A DNA stretch of 38,120 bases, from positions 1 to 38,120 of the IMG/VR virus record IMGVR_UViG_3300045257_000050; one strand, 5' to 3'. The notes under the pieces were generated by a model. The model made no database searches. It worked only from the letters and a program-made list of their open reading frames with translations, and had not been told where the DNA came from. Every line of letters begins with the position of its first letter. The first letter of the stretch is position 1. The translations under genes were made by a program, and so were the position numbers. The stretch is from a virus. This document shows positions 10,718 to 38,120 of this stretch, piece by piece.

Positions 10718-10720
10718 AGC

Positions 10721-19486: not shown

Positions 19487-20721
19487 TGCGCGCAGGGTTT
19501 CCAAAGGAATTTGTAGCGTCAGATCGCCGCGGCGAGATATTCACGCGGCTGAGCGATTCTGAAGCTGGCGGCGCAGGCGGGGGTGGTTCGCCATCGTTCT
19601 TGCTGCTTCTAGATGATCTCGGCAATGGCATCGTCAATACCGTTCCGGTAATTGCTTTAGGCTCTGCAACGCCGACATTCACCAACGCATCGGTCAGGTG
19701 GACAAAGCTCGCAAGCGGGTTATGGGGGCAGGTCGCAACGGGTATCGCGCGATCAAGCTACTTTGGCCGCGATACTGCGGTAGGAGCATACGGCGGCTAC
19801 CTGAGCGAGCCTGCAGGCGTGCAGTTGACTACGCCTACCGCAGCGATTCGGGATATGACTAATGCGGCCTGGATCAAGGTCGGAGCGCCAACGGTTACGC
19901 TGACCGGGACAGGCATTGATGGTGTACCTAACTCATGCACCCGCATCGTGGCGAACGCGCCGAACACGACTCTCTTGATAACGCTGGTTGCTGCGGCTTC
20001 GGCACGCACCTACAGCCCATTCATTCGCCGTGTTGGCGGCAGCGGCACTATCCTGATCCAGCAGGGCGTTACGACACTGGACGTTACCGCAAGCCTGAAT
20101 AGCGTTACGCTCACCCGCTGCGAACTCAATACGAGCGTGCTCAACGTGGCCTATGGCGTGTTGATCGGCTCGACCGGCGATTCGATTGACGTGGACTTCA
20201 ACGGATTCGAGGCGTTGACCGCAACGCAGTTCGCAACAAGTCCGATGGCAAGTACTGGCGCAGCGAGAGCAGCAGACCGCATGGACTTTCTCGCGGCCGG
20301 CAATGTGGACTTCACGCAAGGCACGGCGTATGCGGAGCTTTCAACGAATTACACGATTAGCCCGGCTAACGTAGCCGCACTCGCGGCGACGATGAACGGA
20401 CAGATGTTAGCCGTCGGTGTGGGCGGCGCGGCAACGGGCATCACGGTGTTTGACGGCAATTCGTCTACGACAAAATCTGGCCTCTCCAGCATGAATACTG
20501 CCGTGAGAAAACGCGCAAGTTCCTGGGGGCTGGCAGGCCAGATGGTTACAGGCGACGGCGCAGCGCCTGGGGTGGCTGCATTCGACGGAACGATGGGCGC
20601 GGGGCCAAATATCGAAATAGGCCACTTCGCAGGAGCCAATCAATGGGGCGGCAGCATTCGCGGTGTGCGCATCTTCCCCGCTCAACTAACCTCGGCGCAG
20701 TTGCAAGCTCTAACAGTCTAA
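19486..20721 (+). CDS. Lectin/CBM-like virion protein (411 aa)
   Basis: The ATG at 19486 overlaps the previous stop. A Gly-rich hinge (GGAGGGGSPS, about 29-38) precedes a domain with GYLSEPAGVQLTTPT, MTNAAWIKVG, GTGIDGVPNSC and ARTYSPFIRRVGGSG, the pattern of carbohydrate-binding-type modules in phage fibre and head-spike proteins. The C-terminal part ends IRGVRIFPAQLTSAQLQAL, typical of concanavalin-like (LamG) folds. It is probably displayed on the virion, binding glycans. Its position between portal and scaffold suggests a head, not tail, location (inference). Confidence 0.72.
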   Translation: MRAGFPKEFVASDRRGEIFTRLSDSEAGGAGGGGSPSFLLLLDDLGNGIVNTVPVIALGSATPTFTNASVRWTKLASGLWGQVATGIARSSYFGRDTAVGAYGGYLSEPAGVQLTTPTAAIRDMTNAAWIKVGAPTVTLTGTGIDGVPNSCTRIVANAPNTTLLITLVAAASARTYSPFIRRVGGSGTILIQQGVTTLDVTASLNSVTLTRCELNTSVLNVAYGVLIGSTGDSIDVDFNGFEALTATQFATSPMASTGAARAADRMDFLAAGNVDFTQGTAYAELSTNYTISPANVAALAATMNGQMLAVGVGGAATGITVFDGNSSTTKSGLSSMNTAVRKRASSWGLAGQMVTGDGAAPGVAAFDGTMGAGPNIEIGHFAGANQWGGSIRGVRIFPAQLTSAQLQALTV

Positions 20722-20731
20722 GGAGATCACG

Positions 20732-20935
20732 ATGCCGCAAATCACACTGACAGCGACCGCAGGCCAAGCCGCAGCCGTGCAGCACGATGTCGGCAAAGCC
20801 CTCAATCTCGGACGCGATGCGACGCTCGCGGAAGTCACTCAGTACGCGCGCGACCAGTTCGAGGCGTTGCACCAGCAAATTTTACGAAACGAATCCAATG
20901 CTGCGCTGGTAATTCCGCCGTTGGCGTTGACGTAG
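20732..20935 (+). CDS. Small hypothetical head-operon protein (67 aa)
   Basis: AAGGAG lies 7 bases before the ATG. The protein reads MPQITLTATAGQAAAVQHDV, then the helix TLAEVTQYARDQFEALHQQI and a short hydrophobic tail. It is located just before the scaffold. Unknown role; possibly a small structural or chaperone-like factor. Confidence 0.7.
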   Translation: MPQITLTATAGQAAAVQHDVGKALNLGRDATLAEVTQYARDQFEALHQQILRNESNAALVIPPLALT

Positions 20936-20944
20936 GAGGAAATG

Positions 20945-21823
20945 ATGGAAAATGCGGCTGGATTGACAACGGGCACGGATACGGGTATATCTGGCGGCGC
21001 TGATGCCGCCGCTCCAGGTGGTTCAGCCCTACCGGCCCCCGGCGCCGAAGACCAAGCCGGCGCACCCGCCACGACGGAAGACCTCGCGCAAAACGCAGCA
21101 GAGACTACCGAGCAGCAGGAAGCTCGGAAGCAGTCCGCCTTTCAGCGTCGCCTAGACCGGCAGAGAACCGCCCGAGTCGCAGCAGAAACCGAAGTCAGGC
21201 TGCTCCGGGAGCAGAACCAGCGGCTCGAAGCGCAGTCTCGGCCGGCGCAGGAAACAGGCGAGCCAAAGCGCGAGCAATTCGAGGACTACGAAACCTACTT
21301 GCGCGCCGTCACGCGGTACGACGCGGCGCAGGTGGCGAATCAAAGTCTCCAGAGCGAACGCCAGGCACGCCAGCAAGCCGAACAGCAGGGCCGCGAGGTA
21401 GCGAGCACGCAAAAGCTCGCCGCCGACTGGCAAGCGCGGGAAGCCGCGTTTCAGGCCGCAACGAAGGATTATGCGAGCGTCGTCTCCGCGTACGTTGAGG
21501 AAGGGCTGCCCGACCTCTCCGGCGCCGCGCGAAGGGCGATCGTGGAATCCGAAGTAGGACCGGCGCTCTTGCACCATCTTGCGAAAAACCCTGACGTGGC
21601 CGAGCGGATTACGGACCTCTCTCCGCTGCGGCAAGTGGCCGAACTCGGCAAACTGGAAACCAGCCTAGCGAGCCCGGCCGGGAAGAAAGGAACGAACGCG
21701 CCGGCACCGCCCTCGCCGTTAAACGGTGGGCGCAGCATCTCCCGAGAACTCTCCGGGGATATGAGCCAGAAAGAGTACGAAGCGCTACGCGCGAAGCAAG
21801 GCGCGCGATGGGCGCGAAGATGA
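20945..21823 (+). CDS. Scaffolding protein
   Basis: 292 residues from ATG 20945, which has GGAGG five bases upstream (an ATG three bases earlier is too close). The N-terminus is disordered (Gly/Ala/Thr/Pro). Residues 50-160 are a long Gln/Arg/Glu helix (RRLDRQRTARVAAETEVRLL). The end has KEYEALRAKQGARWARR, a basic tail as in P22-type scaffolds that contact the coat. It acts inside the prohead and leaves before or during packaging. The order scaffold-coat is canonical. Confidence 0.82.
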   Translation: MENAAGLTTGTDTGISGGADAAAPGGSALPAPGAEDQAGAPATTEDLAQNAAETTEQQEARKQSAFQRRLDRQRTARVAAETEVRLLREQNQRLEAQSRPAQETGEPKREQFEDYETYLRAVTRYDAAQVANQSLQSERQARQQAEQQGREVASTQKLAADWQAREAAFQAATKDYASVVSAYVEEGLPDLSGAARRAIVESEVGPALLHHLAKNPDVAERITDLSPLRQVAELGKLETSLASPAGKKGTNAPAPPSPLNGGRSISRELSGDMSQKEYEALRAKQGARWARR

Positions 21824-21830
21824 AATAGGG

Positions 21831-21863
21831 GCGCGGGGCATCGCAGGGATGCGACCTCCGCGC
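21831..21863 (+). promoter_or_regulatory. Hairpin between scaffold and coat genes
   Basis: GCGCGG (21831-21836) pairs with CCGCGC (21858-21863), enclosing GCATC/GATGC (21838-21842, 21848-21852). It lies in the 92-base scaffold-coat gap. No T-run follows. It could process or stabilise the coat message, or set the scaffold/coat ratio; this is inference. Confidence 0.4.
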
Positions 21864-21915
21864 TAAAACGTGAGTAAGGCTACCGCCGCGAGGCGTCGCT
21901 GGAAGGAATCGCAAG

Positions 21916-23130
21916 ATGTCCAACGTTCTTGTCACATCGTCTCTGGTGGCGAAAGAGGCGCTCGCCGTCCTGAAAAACATGCTGTCCTTTGCCGCTGCGG
22001 TCAACCGCGACTATGAGGACGAATATGCATCGAACATGAGTCGCGGCTACGCGCCAGGGGCGACGATCAACATCAAGCGTCCGCCTCGCTACACCTACCG
22101 CGCGGGCAGAGTCGCAGCGCCACAGACCACGGTGGAAACGACAATTCCGCTGACGGTCTCGCAGGGCGGCTGCGATATTTTCTTCAACTCGTTTGAGCGC
22201 ACGCTGTCGCTCACGCAGTTCGAGAAAAAAGTGCGCGCTGCGATGGCGCCGGTTGCGAACGAAATCGACCGGCAGGGCTTGCAACTCGCGCACTTCTCGA
22301 CATTCAACACGCTGAATCCGACCGGCGCACTGCCGACGACGCAGGCGCTCGCAATCAACGCGCTCACGTCGATCAATCAGCGGCTAGACGAAATGGCGGC
22401 GCCTGTCAAAGACGGCAACCGCAACATCGTGATGAATCCGGCGCTAAACGGCGCCATGATCCAGGGCTTCGCGGGCCTATTCAACATGGCCGAGAAAATC
22501 TCAGGACAATACCGCACCGGCTACATGCAGGACTCGTTCGGCATTCATCCTGCGATGGACCAGAACGTCGACGTGCATACGAACGGCGCGGGCACGGCAT
22601 CGAACATCAACGGCGCGAATCAGGTCGGATCAGCGATCACGGTGGCGGCAACTGGCGCAGGCACGATCACGCGCGGCACCACGATCACGCTGCCTGGCGT
22701 TTTCGCGGTCAACCCGCAGTCGCGCACGTCAACGGGTGCGCTCGCCAATTTCGTGATTACGGCGGACGTGGCGCAGGGCGCAGTATCGCTGCCGATCAGT
22801 CCGGCAATCGTGACCTCGGGACCGTTCCAAAATGTCACGGCTTCACCGACTACGGCGCAGCCGTTCGTGATTCTCGGGGCCGCCAGTACGGCGTATTCGA
22901 CGAATATCGGGTTCCATCAGGATGCGTTCACGCTGGCAATGGTGCCTTTATATCAGCCGCCTGCCAATGGCGTAATGTCTGTGAAGAGTGTATCGGACGA
23001 AGGATTTACATTGCGCGTGCTCGAATACTTCGACGGTGCGCAAGATATCGCCAATATGCGGATTGATGTGTGCTTTGGGTATGCCGCGACTTACGCGGAG
23101 CTAAGCACCAAATATTACACGATCCCATGA
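21916..23130 (+). CDS. P22-like major capsid (coat) protein
   Basis: 404 residues, near P22 coat (430). MSNVLVTSSLVAKEALAVLK and the region ATINIKRPPRYTYRAGR match the P22 gp5-type coat family, as does HLXFF-like SQGGCDIFFNSFERTLSL. The end NMRIDVCFGYAATYAELSTK fits too. A Thr/Gly-rich stretch about 240-290 probably forms an inserted beta domain. It builds the HK97-fold head. A GGAAGGAA site precedes the ATG. Confidence 0.9.
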   Translation: MSNVLVTSSLVAKEALAVLKNMLSFAAAVNRDYEDEYASNMSRGYAPGATINIKRPPRYTYRAGRVAAPQTTVETTIPLTVSQGGCDIFFNSFERTLSLTQFEKKVRAAMAPVANEIDRQGLQLAHFSTFNTLNPTGALPTTQALAINALTSINQRLDEMAAPVKDGNRNIVMNPALNGAMIQGFAGLFNMAEKISGQYRTGYMQDSFGIHPAMDQNVDVHTNGAGTASNINGANQVGSAITVAATGAGTITRGTTITLPGVFAVNPQSRTSTGALANFVITADVAQGAVSLPISPAIVTSGPFQNVTASPTTAQPFVILGAASTAYSTNIGFHQDAFTLAMVPLYQPPANGVMSVKSVSDEGFTLRVLEYFDGAQDIANMRIDVCFGYAATYAELSTKYYTIP

Positions 23131-23132
23131 TG

Positions 23133-23639
23133 CTAAATCATGCATCCATCGTGCAGTTTGCGCTTGGCCTCTACATAGGCCGCGTGGGCTTCTTCGGGCG
23201 TGCCAAAAACGCCAAGCCACTTTTTTCGTCTAGCAACAGTTATTCCGGCACACCATCCTTTGTGGGACTTGCTCCAATAAGCGCCAAGCAAACCAGATTT
23301 GCTCGATATTCGCGCATTTCGTTCGTTCTGAGCATTCAGCTTCTCAGTAGCTTCGCGCAGATTTTCAATTCCGTTGCCTGCTTCCTTTCCATGCTTGTGA
23401 TCGACGTCCACAAACGGCCAACGTCCATGCACGTAAAGCCAAGCGAGTCTATGCGCGGCGTAGTTTGCGCCGTCAACGTAGATGTAAATGTACCCGTCGT
23501 GGTGGTGGCTGCCGGCAATATCGCCAACGCGACTACCGCGCCGGTTGTCAGTGAGTCTGGTAAAAACTCCGCTCACTGGATCGTAATGAAGCAACTCTTT
23601 CAACCGCTTTTGCGTAAGAGTACGATTGCGCTTGCTCAT
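23133..23639 (-). CDS. Free-standing HNH-AP2 homing endonuclease
   Basis: 168 residues from ATG 23639 (GAGG upstream). The N-terminal part MSKRNRTLTQKRLKELLHYD is followed by AHRLAWLYVHGRWPFVDVDH, with the HNH site D80-H81, N92 and N102. An AP2-like DNA-binding end (GLLGAYWSKSHKGWCAGITV) closes it. It sits opposite to the late operon, directly after the coat gene, with its own promoter (23709-23736). Such enzymes are selfish elements that cut cognate phage genomes lacking them. Confidence 0.9.
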   Translation of the reverse strand: MSKRNRTLTQKRLKELLHYDPVSGVFTRLTDNRRGSRVGDIAGSHHHDGYIYIYVDGANYAAHRLAWLYVHGRWPFVDVDHKHGKEAGNGIENLREATEKLNAQNERNARISSKSGLLGAYWSKSHKGWCAGITVARRKKWLGVFGTPEEAHAAYVEAKRKLHDGCMI

Positions 23640-23673
23640 GCTGTTGCCCTCTACGGCAATGGGATGGGAAGTG

Positions 23674-23701
23674 GCGCTCAAGGGGTCACGTCCTTGGGCG
23701 C
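23674..23701. terminator. 10-bp hairpin between the HNH gene and the next late gene
   Basis: GCGCTCAAGG (23674-23683) pairs with CCTTGGGCGC (23692-23701), one G-T wobble, 8-base loop. It lies in the leader of the leftward HNH message and, on the plus strand, before the 23730 gene. No T-run follows. It could hide the HNH ribosome site, or limit transcription from either direction. Confidence 0.45.
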
Positions 23702-23708
23702 TGCGATC

Positions 23709-23736
23709 AGCATAGCATAAAGGACAATCATGACAA
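23709..23736 (-). promoter_or_regulatory. Leftward promoter of the HNH endonuclease
   Basis: On the minus strand, -35 TTGTCA (23731-23736), 16-base spacer and -10 TATGCT (23709-23714) with an extended TGC just upstream. It lies over the start of the opposite gene at 23730. The same TGCTATGCT box stands before the orphan gene at 14410. Confidence 0.5.
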
Positions 23737-24173
23737 TCAAGCTCTTGAAGGAATATGACGGCTATGCTGTGGGAACGCTGCTCACACTGCCCGAGTCGAA
23801 AGAATCCGAACTGGTCGGAAAGCAAATCGCCTCCGTCGCGCCGCCGCAGCCTCCGGGTATGCCGGCGCCTGAGCGCAAGGCCGTTCCGCTACCGCCGCCG
23901 AAGCCGCTCACTGTTCCCGAATCACTCGGCGCGTTGCGTGCGCACGTCGTCTCACTGCGCAACCAACTCGCGCGCGGATCGAAAAGCGACATCGATGCAA
24001 TCGGCGCGCATCTGACCGATCTCGTCGCGTGGATCGATGCAGTGATCGACGACAAGCACCACAATCCGGGCTCGATTGCGACGATCGCGATTGATCCTGT
24101 CGCGGCGCACGCGGCCGATGTGAAGGCCGAAAAGGATCGAGTCGCAGCGGAAAAAGCTGAGAACCATACGTAA
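23730..24173 (+). CDS. Putative virion-associated protein with LLxxYxGYxxG domain (147 aa)
   Basis: Opens MTIKLLKEYDGYAVGTLLTL, and a similar domain opens the next gene (LLNRAYGGYASGTIVELP), so the two share a domain. A Pro-rich linker (QPPGMPAPERKAVPLPPPKP) leads to a helix pair and a Lys/Glu-rich tail. Head-tail joining or decoration is plausible from position after the coat; the family is not identified. Confidence 0.65.
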   Translation: MTIKLLKEYDGYAVGTLLTLPESKESELVGKQIASVAPPQPPGMPAPERKAVPLPPPKPLTVPESLGALRAHVVSLRNQLARGSKSDIDAIGAHLTDLVAWIDAVIDDKHHNPGSIATIAIDPVAAHAADVKAEKDRVAAEKAENHT

Positions 24174-24203
24174 TCGCCAACGAAAAGGAAAAGGAATCAC
24201 ATC

Positions 24204-24587
24204 ATGGTGCTTTTGAATCGTGCGTATGGCGGCTATGCCTCGGGGACCATCGTCGAACTGCCGGCAGACACGGAAGCCGCACTCATTGCGCAAGGGCTTG
24301 CAGTCACGAACGCGGGGCCCGCGACATCTGGAGCGGTATCGACGACGTACAACAGCGGGACTGTCACCGTCGCCATTGGTGCGGCGTCCGTCGTTGTCAC
24401 GAATCCACAATGCACAGTGAGCAGCAAAGTCTGCGCCTACGTTTCGCAGGCGGCGGCAGACGGCACGCTGTTGCGCGTGGAGCGCATCGTGTGCGCGGCG
24501 GGATCGTTCACGATCTTTGGCACGGCAAATGCGACCGCGGCAACCGCGATCGATTGGATCTTGTTTCCAGCGCCGGGTGGCGTGTAA
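24204..24587 (+). CDS. Putative virion protein, second copy of the LLxxYxGYxxG domain (127 aa)
   Basis: MVLLNRAYGGYASGTIVELP matches the opening of the preceding protein and suggests duplication. The C-terminal two thirds are strand-rich (TVTVAIGAASVVVTNP, FTIFGTANATAATAIDW), different from the helical tail of its partner. Probably a virion surface or joining protein. The ribosome site AAAGGAAAAGG is strong. Confidence 0.65.
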   Translation: MVLLNRAYGGYASGTIVELPADTEAALIAQGLAVTNAGPATSGAVSTTYNSGTVTVAIGAASVVVTNPQCTVSSKVCAYVSQAAADGTLLRVERIVCAAGSFTIFGTANATAATAIDWILFPAPGGV

Positions 24588-24606
24588 TCTCGCGCCATGA
24601 TTGCAA

Positions 24607-25332
24607 ATGCCGAGCGCTACTGCTCTCCAGTACATCGAGGATGCGCTTGGGTTAACAAGTTCCCTCGGCACGGATCAGACGCTCACTTTTGACGAGACGT
24701 CCGACTGCCTCCGCAAGTTCAACCAGCTTTTGGATAGCTGGAGCGCGCAAAATCTCGCGGTCTACGGCACGGCCAATCAGACCTTCAACAGCGTCGCCAA
24801 TTTAGCGACGTATCCCATCGGCCCCGGATCCACGTGGAACGCAGATCGCCCGCAGCGCATCTGGGAGCCCGCGTACACCGTCATCAACGGCGCCACGTTC
24901 GCTTGCACCATGATGACGCAGGCAGAATACAACATGGTAGGAGTAAAGACTCAGCCCGGCCAGTTCCCGCTTCGTTACCTCTTCATCAACGATTTCCCGG
25001 CCGCATCGGTGACGCTGTGGCCGGTTCCTGACGCGATTATTCCGATCACGTTTTCGATTGATCGGCTGCTGACGCAGGTCGCGGCGGTCGGAACCACGAT
25101 TTCATTCCCTCCCGGCTATGCCAAGGCATTCGTTGAAAACCTGGGGATTGACCTCGCGCCAATTTTCGGCAAGAAGTTGTCGAACTATCCCGAACTGATT
25201 CAATCAGCGCGCGAATCCCTCGGCATCGTCAAGCGTTCGAACAGAAAGCCGCGCGTGCTGCAACTGGATGCGGCGATTGCCGGGCTTGGCGGGCGACGCG
25301 GCTGGCTTGGTCCGAACGGGTTCGGCGGGTGA
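24607..25332 (+). CDS. Gp4-like tail accessory / packaged-DNA stabilising protein
   Basis: 241 residues from ATG 24607. The opening ATALQYIEDALGLTSSLGTD and the sequence KFNQLLDSWSAQNLAVYG match P22 gp4-like proteins; PLRYLFINDFPAASVTLWPVP is the typical middle. It binds below the portal and plugs the head after packaging, and gp4 homologues may have muramidase activity. No clear Shine-Dalgarno is present; a TTG six bases upstream is an alternative start. Confidence 0.85.
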   Translation: MPSATALQYIEDALGLTSSLGTDQTLTFDETSDCLRKFNQLLDSWSAQNLAVYGTANQTFNSVANLATYPIGPGSTWNADRPQRIWEPAYTVINGATFACTMMTQAEYNMVGVKTQPGQFPLRYLFINDFPAASVTLWPVPDAIIPITFSIDRLLTQVAAVGTTISFPPGYAKAFVENLGIDLAPIFGKKLSNYPELIQSARESLGIVKRSNRKPRVLQLDAAIAGLGGRRGWLGPNGFGG

Positions 25333-25335
25333 GTC

Positions 25336-25899
25336 GTGCCGACTATGGATGAAATCCTGCAAGCGCAACGGCAGAACACGCCGAGCACGTTTGAATCGTT
25401 GATGGGCGCGGCGCGCGATCCGCAGTTCTACCGCGATATGGGGAGCCGGGTTTATGATGCTCTGGCGGATGGCGTGCGCAATGTGTTTCCGACTGGCGCA
25501 AAACCTGGGGGCAGTCTTGCACAGCGCGGCGTACCTGTTGATCCTGGGTACAATCAGAAGATTCAGAACCTGGGATTTGCTGGAATGACTGCGACGCGGG
25601 CAATAGTTTCAGGGATCGGGAAAGATTTAGTAACGCTGTATCACGGTACAAGCAAAGACGCGGCGGATTCGATTCGCCAATCTGGCACAATCAAAAGCGG
25701 TGACTATTTCGGCAATATCAGAGGGGTTTCATTAACGCCAAACAAGAAAGTTGCGGAGGAATTCGGTTCCGAAGTTATTGAGGTAAAGATACCAAAGAAA
25801 CGCCTTGTAGTTGATCCAGAATCAGTAGATAACGCAGACATCGGCAGCGCTCTGCGCGACGGCGCAAGTGTCTACGCTACCGGGGATGTATTGCTGTAA
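25336..25899 (+). CDS. ADP-ribosyltransferase-like virion-operon protein (187 aa)
   Basis: Residues 1-95 are helical and structural-looking (QFYRDMGSRVYDALADGVRN). The C-terminal part has LYHGTSKDAADSIRQSG (His103), GVSLTPNKKVAEEFGSEVIE and KRLVVDPE, the order of ART-fold proteins (YHGT, VSLT, hydrophobic strand). The segment 25600-25890 is visibly more AT-rich than its neighbours, a hint of transfer. If active, it could be ejected and modify a host protein at infection, as Alt does in T4. Start GTG 25336; ATG 25345 is possible. The enzyme call rests on motifs only. Confidence 0.6.
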   Translation: MPTMDEILQAQRQNTPSTFESLMGAARDPQFYRDMGSRVYDALADGVRNVFPTGAKPGGSLAQRGVPVDPGYNQKIQNLGFAGMTATRAIVSGIGKDLVTLYHGTSKDAADSIRQSGTIKSGDYFGNIRGVSLTPNKKVAEEFGSEVIEVKIPKKRLVVDPESVDNADIGSALRDGASVYATGDVLL

Positions 25900-27317
25900 T
25901 GCCGCGCATTTCACTCCTGGGTCTCGGGCAACTCGCGCGCAGTTCGTTCGTAACGGCGAACGGAATTACCAATATGGCGGTAGAGTCCAGACCGCAAGGC
26001 GAAAAGAGCATCCTTGTCGCTTTTTCCACGCCGGGCCTGCGCCTATTCGCAGACTTCGGCCCGATGCCCGTTCGCGGCGGCATCGCGTTCGAGGAATTGG
26101 ACGTGTGCTTCGTCGTTCATCTCGGCAACCTGTACGAAGTGAACAATATCGGCGTGGCGACGGTGCGCGGCATGCTGCTGACGACTCAAGGCCGCGTCGG
26201 CATGTCGCACAACACGGTGCAGGTCATGATCGTGGATGGCACGGCGGGCTACATCTACAACACCGTGACGCATGCATTCGCGCAGATTACGGACCCTGAT
26301 TTTCCGGCGAATCCTGCAACCGTCACCTATCTGGGGCGCCGCTTCGTCGTCAGCATCCAGGACTCCAGCCGCTTCCAAGCGTCCGACATTGACGACGGCC
26401 TTTCGTGGGATGCGCTCAACTTTGCAAACGCCGAGGTGAGCCCGGATCAAATCGTGCGCGCCTACGCGAGCAACGGGCAACTGATCCTGCCGGGCTATCT
26501 CGTCACGGAATTCTGGGGCAACTCGGGCACCGCGGATTTCCCGTTCTCGCAGTTGCAGGGCACGGCGAACGAGTGGGGGCTTGCCGCGCGCTACAGCATT
26601 GCGCGCTTCGACAATACGTTCTGCATGTTGGTCCAAAACAGAATGGGCCAAGTGATGATCGGGAAGATGAACGGCTATCTGCCAGAAAAAATCTCGTCTC
26701 AAGACATGGATTTCGTCATCAACCAGTACGCCGTGACGACGGATGCGAGCGCACTTTCCTACATGTGCAACGGGCACCCGATGTACCAGATCAACTTCCC
26801 GAGCGTGCCGGCATCGTGGCTCTACGACGGCTCGCAGAATCCTGGGCAATGGTCGAAGGTCAAGAGCTTCGGCATCGCGCGGCATCTGGCCGAATTCGGC
26901 TTCACGCTGCTTGGCCAGCAGATCGTGGGCGATTTCTCGACCGGGCGCCTGCATCGGCTCGATTGCAACGCACTCACCGACAACGGCGCATCGATCGAGC
27001 GGGAGATCGTGAGCGAGACCGTGGCGAATCCGGGCTTGGAGTACCTGCAAGCCGATTGTTTGCGAATCGATATGGAAGTCGGCAACGGCACGGCGACGGG
27101 GCAGGGGTCGAATCCGCAGATTGGCCTATCCGTATCGCGCGACAACGGCAAAACCTGGGGCGCGCAGATGTGGAAGACGATGGGGGCGATCGGGCAGTTT
27201 CGCACGCGCGTGGAGTGGCGCAGGCTCGGAACGGCACGTTCGTTCGTTTTTCGTATCACGGTCACAGATCCTGTGCCAATGGTGATAGTGAGCGCAACGC
27301 TGAATCCGGATGACTGA
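25899..27317 (+). CDS. Gp10-like tail accessory / packaged-DNA stabilising protein
   Basis: 472 residues. Matches the P22 gp10 plan: MPRISLLGLGQLARSSFVTA, then repeated strand units such as VRGMLLTTQGRVGMSHNTVQ and TYLGRRFVVSIQDSSRFQAS. The end has GLSVSRDNGKTWGAQMWKTMG, a beta-propeller-like pattern, then VRTRVEWRRLG-type strands. It seals the portal with gp4. The ATG overlaps the ART-like stop (TAATG). Confidence 0.85.
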   Translation: MPRISLLGLGQLARSSFVTANGITNMAVESRPQGEKSILVAFSTPGLRLFADFGPMPVRGGIAFEELDVCFVVHLGNLYEVNNIGVATVRGMLLTTQGRVGMSHNTVQVMIVDGTAGYIYNTVTHAFAQITDPDFPANPATVTYLGRRFVVSIQDSSRFQASDIDDGLSWDALNFANAEVSPDQIVRAYASNGQLILPGYLVTEFWGNSGTADFPFSQLQGTANEWGLAARYSIARFDNTFCMLVQNRMGQVMIGKMNGYLPEKISSQDMDFVINQYAVTTDASALSYMCNGHPMYQINFPSVPASWLYDGSQNPGQWSKVKSFGIARHLAEFGFTLLGQQIVGDFSTGRLHRLDCNALTDNGASIEREIVSETVANPGLEYLQADCLRIDMEVGNGTATGQGSNPQIGLSVSRDNGKTWGAQMWKTMGAIGQFRTRVEWRRLGTARSFVFRITVTDPVPMVIVSATLNPDD

Positions 27318-27319
27318 GA

Positions 27320-27592
27320 ATGGCGGCACTCATAAATGCGCCCCCCGAAACTCCAGTCGATCGATTGGACGATGACGGTTCCATGCTCGCGGTCAATCCA
27401 TCGTGGCGCAATTGGTTCGGCGCGGTATTTTTGATCTGCAATGCCATGGTGCAGAGTGGGACTACGGCGCAGCGCCCGGTCAAGCTGCTTTGGGTCGGGC
27501 GAATTTTCTACGACGTCACGATCGGCAAACCGATTTGGATTGCATCGCTGACGCCTACGGTCTGGGTTACGGCGGACGGCATCCCGGCATAG
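27320..27592 (+). CDS. Small conserved phage structural protein (90 aa)
   Basis: Opens MAALINAPPETPVDRLDDDG and has NPSWRNWFGAVFLICNAMVQSGTT, then RPVKLLWVGRIFYDVTIGKP. This pattern (W..WF....ICNA, SGTTAQRP) recurs in short proteins I recall next to tail and ejection genes of proteobacterial phages. Occupies the slot of the tail needle/gp14 genes in P22, but similarity to them is not shown. Confidence 0.7.
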   Translation: MAALINAPPETPVDRLDDDGSMLAVNPSWRNWFGAVFLICNAMVQSGTTAQRPVKLLWVGRIFYDVTIGKPIWIASLTPTVWVTADGIPA

Positions 27593-27601
27593 GGACACAT
27601 C

Positions 27602-29539
27602 ATGGCTGCAAACACATTCAGCGCACTGACCAATCCGACGCCCTCGGCAACGATGGGCGGACTGCAACAGCCCGCTCCTGTTGGTAGGTGGATATTGGCA
27701 GAATCGGGCTATCACTTTTCGCCAGAGATTTTGCAAAAAGTCCTGAGTGATCCGCGTTCGCAGTTTGGCACTGGATCGACATATGTGAATGACGTAACAG
27801 GAGAGATAAGCCCGAATGGACCGCCTCCTGGGCAGCCGGCTTGGGACGCGGGCCGAGATGGTCAGGCGGTGCAGGTCGATAACGGCATAGATCGATACAA
27901 GCCTACGCCAGAATGGCAGGCGCAGATTGACGCGAACAAGGCGCGAAACAGCAATCCATTTGGCCCAGGTGTCGGCGGCATTCTCGGCGGCCTCGCGGCA
28001 GGCTCGGCGTTCCTGCCATCTGCCGCAGCCGCGTTTGCGCCAGCCGCCGCTGCTCCGGCTGCCGCTGCTCCGGCTGCCGCTTCGACCGGCGAGGCGTTGC
28101 TCGGACCTGCAACAGGCTTTGTGCCTTCCGGTTTGACCACGGGCGCCGGCGCCACAGCGGCGCAAGGCGCAGCCGGCGGTTTTTCGGTCATCCCAGGCTC
28201 GACCTCGCTCGGCGGGGCGCTAGAGGCTGCGGTCGGGAACGCGGCGGGGCAATCGCTCATTCCAGGGTCGCTGGCTACCGCCGGCGCAATGGGTACTCCT
28301 GCACTCTCCCCTGCGCTCCAGGCGCTTCTCGCGGGTGGTGCTGGCGCCACTGTTGCTGGTTTGGCGCCGGCGGCTGTTCCGAGCGTCGCGCCAGTGGCTC
28401 CTGCGCCGGTTGCACCGCCGGTCACGCCTACACCCGGCTTTCAACTGCCGCCGGGCTTCAATCAAGCGGCGCAGCTCGCCAGTGCTGGCGCGGCGGCAAA
28501 GGCGTTGCTCGGAAGTGCCGGCAGCAACGAATCCGGCCAATCGTTCGACGCTTTCGGCAATCCATTCAGCAATCCAGCGGGCGCCGCCGCGGCCGATGCA
28601 GCAAACAACGCCGGCGCGACCACGCCGCAGAGCCAGGCGGCCGAGGCCGACGGGCAGGCGCTCAATCCGGGAGGGTTCAACGGCACCGGCGCGACCGTCG
28701 ATCCTTCAACAGGATTGCCGATCAGGGTCGGGAACACGTCCAGCGCAGGCGACGCGCTGAACCGCATCGTCAACGGCACCGGCACGCCTGGGGACTACCT
28801 GACGCTCGGCATACCAGCCAGCGGGGCATTGGCGAGCCTTCTGGCCGGCGCGAATGCGAGCAACGCCAGCAGCAAGGCAGCCGATGCGCAACTCCAGGCC
28901 GCGCAGGCCGCGATCGCCGAGCAGCGCCGGCAGTTCGACGTGACGCAGGCCAACAACGCGCCATTCCTCGCTACGGGCACAGCGGCCAATGCGCGCCTGT
29001 CTCAATTGCTCGGCACGGCGCCGGGTTACACCGGTTCGGACGCGGGCTCGCTGACCAAGCCCTTCACCTCGGCGGACTTGAACGCGGATCCTGTGTACAA
29101 CTCCGGGCTCCAGTTTGGGCTGGATCAGGGCACAAAGGCGATCAACGCGCGAGCGATCGCCGGCGGGAATTACGACTCAGGCGCTACCTTGAAGGCGCTG
29201 ACGCAATTCGGGAACGATTACGGCAGCACGAAGGCGAACGACGCCTTTAATCGGTTCCAGACCACGCAGGGGAATATCTACAACCGGCTCTCAGGGGTTT
29301 CCGGCACCGGCCAAACCGCGGTCGGGCAGGTAGCGCAGGCAGGGCAGGCGGCGACGAACAATATCACCGGCTCGATCGCGGACGCGGGCAACGCGCGGGC
29401 AGCCGGCATCGTCGGCGGGGCGAACGCAGTCACCGGCGCCGCCGGCAACATCAACTCGCTGGCGAACAATTTCAGCAGCAACGCGACGCTGCAGGCGCTT
29501 CTAGGGCAGCGGCAGCCGACATACTTTGCAAACGGGTGA
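27602..29539 (+). CDS. DNA-ejection protein, gp7-like (645 aa)
   Basis: The C-terminal 200 residues match gp7-like ejection proteins: AEQRRQFDVTQANNAPFLAT, then NYDSGATLKALTQFGNDYGS and FNRLS-type repeats with GQTAVGQVAQAGQAATNN. The middle (about 110-300) is Ala/Pro-rich low complexity. Such proteins are packaged in the head and injected to form a conduit through the envelope. Followed directly by two further ejection-type genes. Confidence 0.75.
   Translation: MAANTFSALTNPTPSATMGGLQQPAPVGRWILAESGYHFSPEILQKVLSDPRSQFGTGSTYVNDVTGEISPNGPPPGQPAWDAGRDGQAVQVDNGIDRYKPTPEWQAQIDANKARNSNPFGPGVGGILGGLAAGSAFLPSAAAAFAPAAAAPAAAAPAAASTGEALLGPATGFVPSGLTTGAGATAAQGAAGGFSVIPGSTSLGGALEAAVGNAAGQSLIPGSLATAGAMGTPALSPALQALLAGGAGATVAGLAPAAVPSVAPVAPAPVAPPVTPTPGFQLPPGFNQAAQLASAGAAAKALLGSAGSNESGQSFDAFGNPFSNPAGAAAADAANNAGATTPQSQAAEADGQALNPGGFNGTGATVDPSTGLPIRVGNTSSAGDALNRIVNGTGTPGDYLTLGIPASGALASLLAGANASNASSKAADAQLQAAQAAIAEQRRQFDVTQANNAPFLATGTAANARLSQLLGTAPGYTGSDAGSLTKPFTSADLNADPVYNSGLQFGLDQGTKAINARAIAGGNYDSGATLKALTQFGNDYGSTKANDAFNRFQTTQGNIYNRLSGVSGTGQTAVGQVAQAGQAATNNITGSIADAGNARAAGIVGGANAVTGAAGNINSLANNFSSNATLQALLGQRQPTYFANG
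28046..28081 (+). repeat. 15-base tandem repeat in the ejection gene
   Basis: The unit GCCGCTGCTCCGGCT occurs twice and is followed by a partial copy; it encodes repeated Ala/Pro motifs. It lies in the low-complexity part of the protein and is a likely slippage site, so length may vary between isolates. Confidence 0.6.
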
Positions 29540-29543
29540 TTCC

Positions 29544-30872
29544 ATGGCGCTCGACCCTTCAATAATTTTGGGCGTTCAGAGTCCGAAATTGCAGCTAAAC
29601 GACCCGATCGAGACTTATACCAAGGGCGCGACACTCCAGGCGCTGCTCGGACAGCATGACTTGCAGGGTATCCAGCTTCAAAGCGCGCAACAGGGGTTAT
29701 CGGACGACGCTGCCACGCGCGAGGCTTACCGGCAATCCGGCGGCGACCTGGGCACGCTGCGGGCGCTCTTGTCGAAGGGCGGTCAGTACAAGGAAGTGCA
29801 GGCAATCGACAAGTTGCTGCTCGATAACTCATTCAAGCAGTCGGAAATCGCCAAAAACACGGCAGATGTGCCGAAAATCCAGCAAGAGGCGCTCTCCAAG
29901 GCAGATACGTTATATCGCGATGCGTTCGGCACCGTCGCAAACCCGCAAGAGGCGGCGCAGTTGATTACGGCCGGATTCAATCACCCGCTCCTCGGGCCGA
30001 AACTGCAAATGAATGGCTCGCTTCAAGATCATTTACAGCGGATTCCGCAGGACGCGGCTAAGTTCGATGAATGGAAGCAACTCATGAGCCCGGAATACGC
30101 CAAGTCGAAGCAAGCAGCGGCGACGCTCGCGGAAACTGCGCGCGGGCACACTTTGACGGCGCAAACAGAGAAAGCCGGACAGGATGTGACATTGCGCGGA
30201 CAGAATTTGGTGGATGCGCGCACGCGCGAACGGCTCGCCTACGATCAGGCGCAGCCAAAGGGCCAAGTAGTACCGACTGAGCAGGGGCTTATGCTCGCCG
30301 ACCCTCGGGCCGCAACAGCGCAGCCCATGCTGGGGCCTGACGGCCAGCCGCTTGAACGGCCGCTAAAGGCGATTCCGCCGAGCGCGAATACCGGCATCCT
30401 GGAGAACGCGAACAATCTGCGCCGGGCCGAGCAGGCGCTGGCGCTGGTTGAGGGAAAGACTGTCAACACGGCGAAGGGCAGCACCACGGCGACCGGGTTC
30501 AAGGGCTATCTGCCGGGTGCGATCCTGAACCGCACTGACCCGACCGGCGTCGAAACGCGGGCCGCGATCGCCGACCTCGGCAGCCTGATTATCCACGAAC
30601 GCAGCGGGGCGGCGGTCACGGCCAGCGAGTCGCCGCGACTGGTGCCGTTCATCCCCCAGGTGACCGACGATCATGCGACCGTGGTCAAGAAGCTGCGCCG
30701 ATTCACTGAAATCTACCGGGACATGGCGAAAAACTTGGACGAGACCTATTCCAAGGATCAGGGATACCGGCCGAATCCGGTATCGGCGCGGGGTGCCGGG
30801 GCCGGAATCGATCCTGCCAGCCTTTCGGATGCCGAACTGATGCGCGAGCTAGCGAAAAGCAGGGCAAAGTAG
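29544..30872 (+). CDS. DNA-ejection protein, gp20-like (442 aa)
   Basis: The start MALDPSIILGVQSPKLQLND is the first good ATG after the previous stop. Much of the protein is a long Gln/Ala/Lys-rich helix (TLQALLGQHDLQGIQLQSAQ, KSKQAAATLAETARGHTLTA). The end GIDPASLSDAELMRELAKSR is a motif seen in ejection-type proteins. Position between gp7-like and the large ejection protein matches gp20. Start and stop overlap the next gene (TAG/GTG). Confidence 0.7.
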   Translation: MALDPSIILGVQSPKLQLNDPIETYTKGATLQALLGQHDLQGIQLQSAQQGLSDDAATREAYRQSGGDLGTLRALLSKGGQYKEVQAIDKLLLDNSFKQSEIAKNTADVPKIQQEALSKADTLYRDAFGTVANPQEAAQLITAGFNHPLLGPKLQMNGSLQDHLQRIPQDAAKFDEWKQLMSPEYAKSKQAAATLAETARGHTLTAQTEKAGQDVTLRGQNLVDARTRERLAYDQAQPKGQVVPTEQGLMLADPRAATAQPMLGPDGQPLERPLKAIPPSANTGILENANNLRRAEQALALVEGKTVNTAKGSTTATGFKGYLPGAILNRTDPTGVETRAAIADLGSLIIHERSGAAVTASESPRLVPFIPQVTDDHATVVKKLRRFTEIYRDMAKNLDETYSKDQGYRPNPVSARGAGAGIDPASLSDAELMRELAKSRAK

Positions 30873-33538
30873 TGGATCCTTTAGCGCTCATGGTTGAAGC
30901 AAACCGGCGCGGGTTGCTGCCTGAGGATCAGAAAATGCTGCTTGAGGAAGCACATAGGCGCGGTTTGCTCGAAGCGGTATCGGATACGCCGACTTGGAAA
31001 AAGGGCCTGGTCGCGCTCGGACGCGGCATGACTGACATAGGGCAGGGTGCGCAGCAACTTGTTCGAAGCGGGATCGAAGCGCTGCCAGGTGTTCCACGTG
31101 GCGCAGCCGGGGCCGAGGATTACAACGCGAAAGTCGCCGAGGAATTGCGCCTGTTTAAGCCGTTTGAGGAAACCGTATCGGGTTCGTCTATCGGGCGCGC
31201 GGTCGGGGCTGCATTGCCTACGTTGGCACTGCCTGTCGGAACGGCGGCGCGCGGCGCCGGCGCGGTCATATCCAAGTTGGCGCCTACGGCAGGGGCGCGG
31301 GTTGCCGGGAGCGTTGCTGCCGATGCTGCTTTGACCGGCGCCGGCCAGGGTGCGCTCATGGCTACCGATACAGGCGAAACGCACCTTGGCGGGGCGGCCG
31401 CTGGCGCTGCTGGCGGGGTTGCTGCGGTAGGCGCCCTGAATGTTGCCGGCAGAGTCGCTACGCCTGCAATACGGGCCTTGGCAAACAGGATCAACCCGCA
31501 AGCACCGATCGCGGCCGGTATGACGACTGGCGCACCTGGAATGTCGCCTGAACTGACTGCGGCGGTCATTCGCGCGTTGGAAAAGGAAGGGATCGACGTG
31601 CCAAGTCTTACCGCCGATGCGCGCGCCCGGATCGCTGCAATGGCAGCAGATACCGTGCAGGGCAATCCGGTGACGGCGAAGGAGCTAGCGCGCGCTGCGC
31701 GTTTGCAATCGCTTCCTGTACCCATTCAGGGAACGAAGGGGCAACTGTCAAAGGATTTCGCGCAGAATCAACTTGAGCAGAGCTTGGCAAAAAGCACCTC
31801 GGCCGGGGCGCCCATTCGGGAAGCATTTGCGACGCAAGACGAAAAACTGATCGAGAACTTGGATAAGTTTCGCGGTCAGACAGGTGCAAACATCGCAACC
31901 GAAGGCGATATGGGGCGCAGCGTGGATGCCGCGTTGCGGGCCCGGATCAAAAAGTCCAACGCAAATATCGGCGCATTGTATCGGGAAGCGGAAAAGACTG
32001 GCGAGACGCTGGCGCCCGTAGACGCTCAACCGCTTGTCGATTGGCTCGCCGCGAATGAATCAAATGCCGTAGCGGCGCCAGCAATTGACGCCATCAAGAA
32101 TAATCTGTTGAAGATTGGCGCAATTGAAGTGGACAAGGCAGGGGCCATCATTGCGAAGGCATCGAGGCCGCAGACGGCGCCCGAGTCAATATCCCAGGCA
32201 GTCAGAAAGATTGGCGGGCTTAAGCGTGCAGAGCGGCCGGATATTACCGGCGGGCACAAGGGAAACGATACGCTATTCACGAAGGACGGCATCGCGATTG
32301 ACCAGATGGTGCCGCGCCTTAGAGAGCGTGGATTCGACATCAACGAAATGGATGTAGACGGAGGCGTGCAACAGTTACGCGATATGCTCGCCGACGAAAT
32401 AAGCGGGCGCGCAAAGCATTTTCCGATTGGTTCAGAGGGCGCGCGCGCACGTACCGGGGTGCCTGATGAAGCGGCATTCCAAGATATCATGCGTCAGTAC
32501 AACACCGCCTCGTCAGAGAATTCCAAAGCCTTCGATTTCAACGATAAGGACCCAGGTTTTATAAGTGAGCAAAAGTGGCTCGACGACTGGCGGGATGCAC
32601 AAGTCCAGGCGTTAAAAGCGGCATCAAAACCGCAAAATGTGCTCGGGATTGAGCCCCGCAAGTTCGTAGCGAAGCCAGTCACAATCAATGATCTGGAAAA
32701 TATTCGCAAAGCCGCGGTCAACTTGGGCGACGCGAGCAGCAACGGGCATTACATGAGCGAAGTAAAAAAAGTCATCGACGGCATGACGGAAGGCGTCGGC
32801 GGCGAAGCGTATCAGGCCGCGCGCTCGGCACGCCTGCAACACGCTCTGCAATTCGAGGAACCTGGCGTGATTCAGAACGTCGTCGGCATGAAGTCGCGCA
32901 CTGACCGCGCCGTGCCTTTCGAGGACGTTTTCAAAAAGACGGTTATCAATGGCTCGATTGATGATCTGAAGCTGCTCAAGCGCACGCTCATCGCGAACGA
33001 TCCGGCAACGCGCGAGGCCGGTGTGCAGGCGTTAAAGGATATGCGGGGGCAAGCGATTCAATACCTGAAAGACGCGGCGACGAACAACGCTTATGAGACA
33101 ACAAGCGAGGCTGCGTTGCGGCGCGCGTACAATCAGATCGGGCCTGAGAAAATGCAAGAGCTGTTTGGTGGGAACGTCGCCAAGCAATTCGCCAATTTTC
33201 TCGAAGCGGTCAAGGATTTGAAAGTTCCGCCGAAGGGAACATTCAATCCGAGCGGGACGGCGGGAGAGCTCGTGAACTGGGTCGATCGCATTCTCGGCTT
33301 TGTGCCAGGCGGCGGCATTGTCAAGGCGGGCGTCAAGGGGGCTGCGAAGTTGGCAGAGTCGGCGAAGGCGTCCGGACAAGCGGCAGCGGCGGTAAATCCG
33401 ATTGATCCAGCGGCAAACGCTTCTGCGACATTGGCGCAGCAAAATGAACGAGTGCGGGCGCTGCTCGATTCGCCTACCGCGCGGAAGTTGAAAGGACGTG
33501 CTGCTGCGTTGATCGCTGCCGGCGCAGCCGGTCAATGA
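30872..33538 (+). CDS. Large DNA-ejection/internal virion protein, gp16-like (888 aa)
   Basis: GTG start overlapping the previous stop. Residues 1-60 hold a repeated helix (MVEANRRGLLPEDQKMLLEE, AHRRGLLEAV). Residues 75-210 are Gly/Ala-rich and hydrophobic, suited to membrane insertion. The middle (about 470-515) has GIAIDQMVPRLRERGFDINE and VQQLRDMLADEI, resembling an associated domain of large polyvalent phage proteins. The end is helical. It is packaged and ejected with DNA. The gp16-like assignment is by order and character. Confidence 0.7.
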   Translation: MDPLALMVEANRRGLLPEDQKMLLEEAHRRGLLEAVSDTPTWKKGLVALGRGMTDIGQGAQQLVRSGIEALPGVPRGAAGAEDYNAKVAEELRLFKPFEETVSGSSIGRAVGAALPTLALPVGTAARGAGAVISKLAPTAGARVAGSVAADAALTGAGQGALMATDTGETHLGGAAAGAAGGVAAVGALNVAGRVATPAIRALANRINPQAPIAAGMTTGAPGMSPELTAAVIRALEKEGIDVPSLTADARARIAAMAADTVQGNPVTAKELARAARLQSLPVPIQGTKGQLSKDFAQNQLEQSLAKSTSAGAPIREAFATQDEKLIENLDKFRGQTGANIATEGDMGRSVDAALRARIKKSNANIGALYREAEKTGETLAPVDAQPLVDWLAANESNAVAAPAIDAIKNNLLKIGAIEVDKAGAIIAKASRPQTAPESISQAVRKIGGLKRAERPDITGGHKGNDTLFTKDGIAIDQMVPRLRERGFDINEMDVDGGVQQLRDMLADEISGRAKHFPIGSEGARARTGVPDEAAFQDIMRQYNTASSENSKAFDFNDKDPGFISEQKWLDDWRDAQVQALKAASKPQNVLGIEPRKFVAKPVTINDLENIRKAAVNLGDASSNGHYMSEVKKVIDGMTEGVGGEAYQAARSARLQHALQFEEPGVIQNVVGMKSRTDRAVPFEDVFKKTVINGSIDDLKLLKRTLIANDPATREAGVQALKDMRGQAIQYLKDAATNNAYETTSEAALRRAYNQIGPEKMQELFGGNVAKQFANFLEAVKDLKVPPKGTFNPSGTAGELVNWVDRILGFVPGGGIVKAGVKGAAKLAESAKASGQAAAAVNPIDPAANASATLAQQNERVRALLDSPTARKLKGRAAALIAAGAAGQ

Positions 33539-33672
33539 TGTTTTCGGTACAGCGCATCCTTGATCTTTCCGCGCGGGATTGCTGGCCGTAAAAGCGCGGC
33601 AATCAGTGAGGCGGCGCCCCAAACTATCAAGTACGCAAACGGCCGAACGAATGCTGCCAGCGCAAACGACAT
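33532..33672 (-). CDS. Possible antisense membrane microprotein (46 aa)
   Basis: Minus strand, MSFALAAFVRPFAYLIVWGA then ASLIAALLRPAIPRGKIKDA: one clear membrane helix and a basic tail. It is the only coding candidate in the 150-base gap between the ejection and fibre genes, and it overlaps the ejection gene end by 7 bases. No Shine-Dalgarno precedes the start, so translation is uncertain. Confidence 0.4.
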   Translation of the reverse strand: MSFALAAFVRPFAYLIVWGAASLIAALLRPAIPRGKIKDALYRKHH

Positions 33673-33690
33673 AAACGGAGAATAGCACAG

Positions 33691-34527
33691 ATGCCCGCAG
33701 TCAATCCGTCACCCTTCGGCGTGAAGCCTCAATTCGTGCTTGCAAGCGGTTTGCCTGCGGTGGGCAATCTTTTATTTACATACGTTGCAGGCAGTGTTGG
33801 AACGATGCAGCCAAGCTATACTGACGCGAGCGGGGCGGCCGCTAATCCAAATCCGATTCTGCTGAATGCGCTCGGAGAAACCCCTAACGAATTATGGGTA
33901 TCGGCGACGCAGAACTATAAATATGTGTTCGCTCCCGCAGGCGATACGAATCCTCCGACTTCGCCAATCTTTACAATAGATAACGTCCCAGGCGCCCCCT
34001 CCTCGAACGTTGTCGCATCCGAATGGGTCGATTCCGGCCTGACGCCTACCTTCGCATCGGCCACGTCGTTCACGGTTCCAGGCGATCAGACCTCCATTTT
34101 CCAATTGCAGCGCAGGGTCAAGACGACGAACGCGGGCGGCACGATTTACAGCACCATCGTCGGGAGCGTGTTTGGCGCTGGCGTGACTACGGTAACGGTA
34201 GTCAACGACGCAGGCGTGCTTGATGTGGGCCTATCCTCAGTTGCCTACGGATTCATATCGGTTATCAATACGTCGCTGCCCGCATTCCCGAGATTTGCCG
34301 ATGGGGAAGTGCCGGTAGGCGTGATTAACGGCGTTGGAGCAGTCGGCAATGTGGTATTCTCGCTTGCTCATACGCCGAGTCCAGCCGCAAGTCTGCGCAT
34401 TTTCCACCGCGATGGGCCGCCCTTTTTTGTGGGCGTCGATTTCAATCTCGTCGGCAATATCATCACATTTCTAGCAGCGAGCACGCCTCAAACTGGCGAC
34501 TTGCTGAGTGCTTTTTACCGCTTCTAA
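33691..34527 (+). CDS. Tail fibre/spike-type protein (278 aa)
   Basis: Opens MPAVNPSPFGVKPQFVLASG and continues with LPAVGNLLFTYVAGSVGTMQ and ANPNPILLNALGETPNELWV, the head-binding N-terminal pattern of many phage fibres. The remainder is strand-rich and ends PQTGDLLSAFYRF. GGAG lies ten bases before the ATG. It probably attaches to the tail hub and carries or presents the receptor-binding part; no enzymatic depolymerase motif was seen. Confidence 0.72.
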   Translation: MPAVNPSPFGVKPQFVLASGLPAVGNLLFTYVAGSVGTMQPSYTDASGAAANPNPILLNALGETPNELWVSATQNYKYVFAPAGDTNPPTSPIFTIDNVPGAPSSNVVASEWVDSGLTPTFASATSFTVPGDQTSIFQLQRRVKTTNAGGTIYSTIVGSVFGAGVTTVTVVNDAGVLDVGLSSVAYGFISVINTSLPAFPRFADGEVPVGVINGVGAVGNVVFSLAHTPSPAASLRIFHRDGPPFFVGVDFNLVGNIITFLAASTPQTGDLLSAFYRF

Positions 34528-34535
34528 GGATTGCC

Positions 34536-35375
34536 ATGAGAATGATTCTCGCCGCGCTCGCTCTTTTCGCCTCTGTCGCGGTCGGTGCGCCCGTCAGTCC
34601 GTTTGGCGGCGGCACGGGCAAAGCAAATCCGAATACGAGCATTGTCACCGTGGCCGGGCCGCTTACCACGGTCGGAAACTTCCTTACTACCCTAACAATC
34701 ACCGCGCCGACTTCGATCACGCTTCCTACCAGCGGCACGCTCGCAACAACGGCGCAAATCACTGGTGGTACGCTTGCAGGTAGCTTCACTACTGTTACTG
34801 CCACCGGCGCCGTCACTTCCACTGCCTCTGGCAATGCTTTTATTTCTAATAGCACAGCGGATCAAACTGGTTTTGTTTTGCAGAATGCCGGTGTTACTAA
34901 ATGGACCCTATACAATCGATCAGGCTTTGCCGATAACTTTCAGATTCTAAGTGCTACTACCGGCACCGGTTTCACCGTTTTACAAGCTAGCGGCAGGGGG
35001 TCATTTGGCAGTGGCGCTGATGTCGTAGGCAGTCTTACTGCTACATCTTTCAACGATGATGCAGGGAACCTGATAATCAGTTCGACGAATCCGACGATTG
35101 CGAGCGGGTTCGGAACCGGGCCTGCGATTCTTGCTAACAACACGGCGGCGTTCAGGGTGACAGTGGGGACCACGCCAGGGAGTCAAGGTGCGTTCACTAT
35201 GCCGGCCGCGCCTAATGGGTGGGTTTGTAGCTGCCAAAATCTTAACGGCACTCCACATATGACTAGACAAGATTCATCCACAACTACGTCAGTTTCGTTT
35301 ACGAACTATACGTCCTTGGCCGCTGGTAATTTTACCGCAGGGTCTGTTCTGCTCTTTCAATGCGCGGCATTTTGA
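34536..35375 (+). CDS. Fibre-like protein with predicted signal peptide (279 aa)
   Basis: MRMILAALALFASVAVGAP is a typical secretion signal (Arg then hydrophobic core, AxA-like end). It is followed by FGGGTGKANPNTSIVTVAG and SITLPTSGTLATTAQITGG, the beta-strand repeat style of phage fibres. The end has Cys-containing GWVCSCQNLNGTPHMTRQDS. A signal peptide is unusual for a virion fibre; it may be exported, or the hydrophobic start may anchor assembly. AAGGA lies 8 bases upstream. The middle is more AT-rich. Confidence 0.68.
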   Translation: MRMILAALALFASVAVGAPVSPFGGGTGKANPNTSIVTVAGPLTTVGNFLTTLTITAPTSITLPTSGTLATTAQITGGTLAGSFTTVTATGAVTSTASGNAFISNSTADQTGFVLQNAGVTKWTLYNRSGFADNFQILSATTGTGFTVLQASGRGSFGSGADVVGSLTATSFNDDAGNLIISSTNPTIASGFGTGPAILANNTAAFRVTVGTTPGSQGAFTMPAAPNGWVCSCQNLNGTPHMTRQDSSTTTSVSFTNYTSLAAGNFTAGSVLLFQCAAF

Positions 35376-37262: not shown

Positions 37263-37474
37263 TGGGTCCGGGCGAGATACTGGCACTCCAGATCATCCTA
37301 GGCTTGGTTGACCGGGCTGCCGCGTATTCTGCCGCGCTTGCCAAAGCCAAGGCCGAGGGCCGCGACCTCAGCGAAGCCGAGATTCTGGCGCTCGCGCAGG
37401 ATGACGACGTAGCGAGGGCCGAGCAGGTTTTGGCAATCGCCCGGCGGCGGGCGGAAGAGGCGAAGACCGCGTGA
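37262..37474 (+). CDS. Small helical lysis-region protein (70 aa)
   Basis: MGPGEILALQIILGLVDRAA then AYSAALAKAKAEGRDLSEAE, charged helices and a basic end. The start overlaps the lipoprotein stop (TAATG) and its stop overlaps the endolysin GTG. The amphipathic N-terminus could sit at a membrane. No family recognised. Confidence 0.65.
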   Translation: MGPGEILALQIILGLVDRAAAYSAALAKAKAEGRDLSEAEILALAQDDDVARAEQVLAIARRRAEEAKTA

Positions 37475-37911
37475 ACGACAAGCCTACCCGAGAAGAGCGG
37501 ATCAATAATCCTGGCGGTATCGAGCGCACGCGCGGCACGATCTGGAAAGGGCAGAATAACGACCAATCCACCGATGCACGCTTCGTCGTGTTCACAAGTG
37601 CGGTATGGGGTATCAGGGCGTTAGCGAGGACGTTGCTCACCTACTCCAGAGTCTACCCGCAGGACAGTCCGCGTGACATCGATACGGTGCGGGAAATCGT
37701 CTCCAGATGGGCGCCGCCGGGCGAGAATGACACCGACGCATACATCCACGCCGTTGCGAATACGACCGGATTCATGCCGGATCAGGCCATCGATGTCACC
37801 GACCCAAAGGTTATGTCGGCGCTGGTTATCGGAATTATTCGGCAAGAGAACGGAAGAAATTCGTACCACTTTGACGTGATAAATGACGGCGTTCAGCGGG
37901 CGCTCGCCTGA
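37471..37911 (+). CDS. Endolysin-like (PRD1 P5/structural-type muramidase family) protein
   Basis: 146 residues. The pattern REERINNPGGIERTRGTIWK, RFVVFTSAVWGIRALARTLL, then REIVSRWAPPGENDTDAYIH and RQENGRN fits a domain found in phage lytic or virion proteins, where it cleaves or binds peptidoglycan. The GTG start (37471) overlaps the previous stop. Position at the end of the rightward late block suits the endolysin. The catalytic residue is not assigned. Confidence 0.72.
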   Translation: MNDKPTREERINNPGGIERTRGTIWKGQNNDQSTDARFVVFTSAVWGIRALARTLLTYSRVYPQDSPRDIDTVREIVSRWAPPGENDTDAYIHAVANTTGFMPDQAIDVTDPKVMSALVIGIIRQENGRNSYHFDVINDGVQRALA

Positions 37912-37915: not shown

Positions 37916-38120
37916 TCACGAATAGCTCTGCTCAATAGCATTCACCAGCGCCAGTTCGGCGGCAACGATGTTCTCCCGGCCTTCTGAATGGATGAACGTC
38001 TTTGCCGCCTCGGCGACGGTGCGCAGGCAATTCAGTTCAGACTTTTCAACCATAATTGCTTCAATAAACTGCTCGTCCGGTTCACCGGTACAATCTTCGC
38101 CGTCGGGGCCGGAGGCAGGC
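37916..38120 (-). CDS. C-terminal part of the junction-crossing small early gene
   Basis: Leftward frame open from the right edge to TGA at 37916-37918: acidic start (ASGPDGEDCTGEPDEQ), then helices FIEAIMVEKSELNCLRTVAE and ENIVAAELALVNAIEQSYS. It joins in phase to the gene cut at base 1 (CC plus G completes a proline codon), giving one 98-residue gene. Converges on the endolysin gene with four bases between the two stop codons. Confidence 0.75.
   Translation of the reverse strand, partial: PASGPDGEDCTGEPDEQFIEAIMVEKSELNCLRTVAEAAKTFIHSEGRENIVAAELALVNAIEQSYS

Follow-up and report, generated by a model that had tools for sequence, protein, structure and literature searches.

Genes at the edges of the window

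The stretch of DNA analyzed here (the window, 38,120 bp) is the entire IMG/VR record IMGVR_UViG_3300045257_000050. Its left edge cuts a minus-strand gene, gene A, of which the 5' end (30 codons and 2 bases) occupies positions 1-92; the gene is complete in a related contig, G004 (IMG/VR 3300045303_000112, locus L005), where it encodes 123 aa. On the same strand, a conserved gene of 65 aa (positions 89-286) lies upstream of a variable cargo site, the next gene starting in an ATGA overlap with its stop. In ten related contigs (L118-L127) and the window, about seven different genes stand directly behind the 65-aa gene by way of this overlap, which marks the site as a hot spot for the exchange of small cargo genes. 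Scanning the 65-aa gene against bacterial and archaeal genomes for a prophage or host returned nothing.

The right edge cuts a second minus-strand gene, gene C, whose 3' end (67 codons, positions 37916-38120) is a C-terminal module in relatives. Its convergent neighbor is a plus-strand lytic-domain ("endolysin") gene at positions 37471-37911 (phrog_873, 1.8e-48). This gene also adjoins gene C in a second related contig, G001 (IMG/VR 3300045120_000403), with 100% protein identity, and G001 matches the right arm of the window at 98.5% over 1.4 kb.

Genome organization

Between the two edges, a P22-like head and DNA-ejection module occupies positions 14773-33538 on the plus strand, comprising terminase, portal, scaffold, coat, gp10-like, gp7-like and ejection protein genes. 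Both the portal (PF16510, E 2.1e-153) and the coat (PF11651, E 2.2e-31) are of the P22 type. Matches to phrog_8865, phrog_578, phrog_598 and phrog_26400, in this order, correspond to scaffold, gp10-like head closure and DNA-ejection genes, and the P22 order of scaffold, coat, gp10-like head closure, gp7-like ejection and further ejection protein is kept. Judged by its portal, its coat and its matching head gene order, the window can be classed as an ordinary P22-like podovirus. The Salmonella phage P22 group has portal, scaffold, coat, gp10-like and gp7-like genes in the same order, but sequence identity is low and no P22-type tailspike was identified in the window: for a tailspike with endorhamnosidase, the genes at positions 33691-35375 gave no match in PHROGs or Pfam.

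Among named phages, Rhodoferax phage P26218 (NC_029061) and EBPR podovirus 1 come closest in their portal, with about 50% identity and genome lengths of 36.1-36.3 kb. For P26218, the assembly yielded a circle with varying start points, and the phage was taken by its authors to be terminally redundant or circularly permuted (PMC4657236). The annotated replication genes of P26218 (DNA polymerase, replicative helicase, thymidylate synthase) are unlike those identified in the window, whose early regions carry an exonuclease VIII-like gene, a replication initiation gene and a helicase-methyltransferase. The latter is a single protein of 739 aa (positions 10703-12922) that combines helicase and N6/N4 DNA-methyltransferase parts, and a C5-methyltransferase-like gene stands separately at positions 7324-8274.

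Several intervals within the head operon differ between the window and its relatives. An HNH endonuclease gene with an AP2-like domain lies antisense behind the coat gene (positions 23133-23720, minus strand); G001 has only about 22 bp at this site, so that it resembles a mobile gene for a homing-type endonuclease. Immediately ahead of the gp10-like head gene, a gene of 187 aa (positions 25336-25899) shows a weak ADP-ribosyltransferase match (DRAT, E 4e-4, below the Pfam cut-off). Only 38 bp separate the matches to window positions 25290 and 25900 in G001, pointing to a recent insertion or loss of this gene. Finally, the genes between portal and scaffold (positions 19483-20935) have homologues beside tail or lysis genes in seven related contigs (G002, G003, G004, G008, G009, G010 and G013; in G002, for example, at 33272-34668). 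This suggests a tail or receptor-binding module that may have moved elsewhere in the operon.

In-frame fit of the two edges

The preliminary description had joined the two edges of the window into one gene and concluded that the phage genome looks closed. The arithmetic of this join is correct. Reading leftward from the minus-strand ATG at positions 92 to 90, base 1 is reached after 30 codons and two bases (CC), and base 38120 supplies the third base (G) of the split codon, so that the codons around the join read CAG, CC-G and CCT. The leftward frame from 92 to 1 and on from 38120 to 37916 is uninterrupted, with a stop adjoining the endolysin gene, and amounts to 98 codons. On the minus strand, the hypothetical joined sequence would read ...GCTATCGGACAGCC followed across the join by GCCTGCCTCCGG..., which can also be written as ...GGACAGCC followed by GCCTGCC....

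Such a fit is expected rather often. Each edge falls within a gene, and the two genes share a strand, so that phase alone decides whether they fit. When two of the window's own genes running in the same direction were joined at random (20,000 trials), 33.1% of the joins were in phase to the native stop; the frame stayed open for at least 50 codons beyond the join in 47.6% of random joins of its own genes (20,000 trials). The in-frame fit of the edges is a one-in-three coincidence, no more than chance.

Homologues of the joined protein were also sought. A tblastn search of the phage collection with the 98-aa protein gave noise only, and Pfam and PHROGs searches gave no match. When viral contigs were scanned with the same protein, matches covered residues 1-30 or residues 32-98, never both in one frame, and scanning viral contigs for exact patterns from both edges recovered only continuations contradicting the join. 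Among contigs carrying the 65-aa gene, none of ten contained the join of gene A to gene C. The homologue covering both halves that the preliminary description had proposed to look for did not appear; in relatives, the halves are two different genes. The 98-residue protein almost certainly does not exist.

Related contigs spanning the site

What lies beyond each edge can be read in the relatives. At the left edge, G004 shows 99.35% identity over window positions 1-615. The first 402 bases of the window are identical in G004, which then runs on into the remaining part of gene A. The residues that follow the window's half in this 123-aa gene are ...AIGQPMVYGADW... (also written ...MRNAIGQPMVYGADWHVEFARRLREAWELEG...), and the gene A sequence expected beyond base 1 is ...AATGGTCTACGG....

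At the right edge, three relatives (G001, G002 and G004) continue beyond base 38120 with one identical sequence, GCAGGTTCGGTAGTAATCG.... This common continuation, GCAGGTTCGGTAGTAATCGTCGGGG, is different from the left end of the window, GGCTGTCCGATAGCG; the gene C sequence expected beyond base 38120 is ...GCAGGTTCGGTAG.... The last 67 residues of the window correspond to the C-terminal module of a gene of 217 to 274 aa in relatives. In G001, the module belongs to a protein of 217 aa that begins MSAEPTLAEQ... and is encoded immediately behind the 65-aa gene; in G003 (IMG/VR 3300045283_000099), to a 274-aa protein starting MTAEVEALL...; and in G004, to a 254-aa protein of which only the C-terminal 67 residues correspond to the window edge. 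In the closed contig G008 (IMG/VR 3300047409_000291), it forms a free-standing gene of 71 aa. The module (...EDCTGEPDEQFIEAI...) is thus re-used behind different N-terminal parts among relatives. Direct closure at the join is contradicted by these contigs, since in close relatives both edges continue differently, an outcome that the preliminary description had itself named as refuting it.

Four relatives (G001, G003, G004 and G008) each have the right edge and the left arm on a single contig, with order and orientation as expected. The DNA between the positions of the two edges measures 445 bp in G001, 616 bp in G003, 1546 bp in G004 and about 970 bp in G008, so that the first three have the same gene order across the edges as the window but 0.4-1.5 kb between the halves. 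The order in G004 is gene A (123 aa), gene B (237 aa) and gene C (254 aa), with an ATGA overlap at each junction. The site of the window's ends is internal in five relatives: G003, G004 and the closed contigs G008, G010 (IMG/VR 3300045285_000056) and G013 (IMG/VR 3300045242_000089). On the three circles, the lysis genes and the 65-aa gene are close neighbors; G010 and G013 also carry P22-like head genes, with about 31-35% protein identity to those of the window. These relatives, three of them closed, place the right arm beside the left arm, and their gene arrangement supports a circular gene order for the window's phage as well. The window measures 38.1 kb, compared with 39.1-41.0 kb for the closed relatives (repeat removed). 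Part of the earlier claim of completeness stands, namely a near-complete genome with a circular gene order and the P22-like head genes present, but the genome is not closed.

A 127-base signature at the left edge

The first 127 bases of the window (positions 1-127) mark an assembly breakpoint. Exactly these bases also end contig G002 (IMGVR_UViG_3300045257_000173): the two contigs have the same first base, are identical over 127 bases and diverge at base 128. At the other end, G002 extends 87 bases further than the window. The end repeats of the closed contigs G008, G010 and G013, which carry other cargo genes at the site, are exact and also 127 bp each; the window has no such repeat, and no exact direct or inverted terminal repeat (DTR/ITR) was detected between its ends.

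On a circular template, an assembler leaves a repeat of k-mer length at the ends, and such lengths reflect the k-mers of the assembler (CheckV paper, PMC8116208). Thus, 127 looks like the assembler's k-mer. Together with the end shared with G002, this would make the left edge an assembly-graph breakpoint arising from co-existing related phages. By the same reasoning, a join truly closed at k = 127 would be expected to show its ends overlapping by 127 bp, and ends that abut without overlap would not be neighbors in the graph. The signature is seen at the left edge only, and it is from there that we infer a k-mer cause for the break. At the right edge no exact partner end was found, the longest exact match being 91 bases; the break there may have the same cause.

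Interpretation

Altogether, the window is almost certainly a linear, near-complete contig of a permuted P22-like phage, with a gap of probably about 1 kb at the variable cargo site, and not a closed genome. It would contain almost the whole of a circularly permuted (or circular-mapping) podovirus genome assembled from a metagenome. Its ends would flank the cargo site, which has the leftward 65-aa gene on one side and the lysis genes on the other; gene A is cut at the left end and gene C at the right. The missing DNA may amount to about 0.7-1.6 kb and would comprise the remainder of gene A, perhaps gene B, and the start of gene C. This estimate derives from the layouts in relatives (gene A then gene C, about 0.7 kb; genes A, B and C, 1.6 kb), so that the gap in the window's own phage may have a comparable size. 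Sharing and swapping of sequence between co-existing related phages at this site probably made the assembler stop there. Headful packaging may be presumed for this phage; related contigs start at different points, as would fit permuted ends.

Other readings were weighed. With the site taken as a hot spot where small cargo genes are swapped behind the fixed 65-aa gene via ATGA overlaps and the C-terminal module is re-used, the window might carry a genuine deletion fusion there; we consider such a fusion very unlikely. A truly closed genome, in which a deletion linked the beginning of gene A with the C-terminal module of gene C and created a real 98-residue gene, appears highly improbable. The frame is open and in phase, and the module is mobile, standing behind different N-terminal parts in G001, G003 and G004 and alone in G008, so that fusions do take place at this locus. 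However, an in-phase fit is expected in 33% of cases by chance, and the join is present in no contig. A circle assembled at k = 127 should moreover have left an end repeat of 127 bp like those of G008, G010 and G013, and none is present; the left edge coincides with the shared 127-base breakpoint.

It is extremely improbable that the contig is a large chimera whose two arms come from different phages. Compared with its relatives it is mosaic, its head genes matching G001 and its early genes G003, G004 and G008, but a mosaic make-up is normal in phages of this kind. Most of the window's head and lysis genes stand in G001 in the same order (many with 89-100% protein identity), together with the 65-aa gene of the left arm, all on one contig. 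A linear genome whose physical ends are fixed at bases 1 and 38120 can be rejected as having practically no probability. G002 does begin at exactly the same base, but the stretch in common is exactly 127 bases, the sign of an assembly vertex, and the right edges of the two contigs differ by 87 bases. In addition, relatives have intact copies of the genes cut at both edges, and five of them carry the site in their interior.

With the window taken as a linear contig with a gap, its case indicates that the in-frame fit of contig edges, which arises one time in three, is weak evidence for a complete phage genome. A stronger test of closure is cheap: an end repeat of k-mer length, together with relatives spanning the join. 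The record should be labelled as linear with a gap, and the genome is useful as that of a near-complete P22-like phage whose portal is related to those of betaproteobacterial phages.
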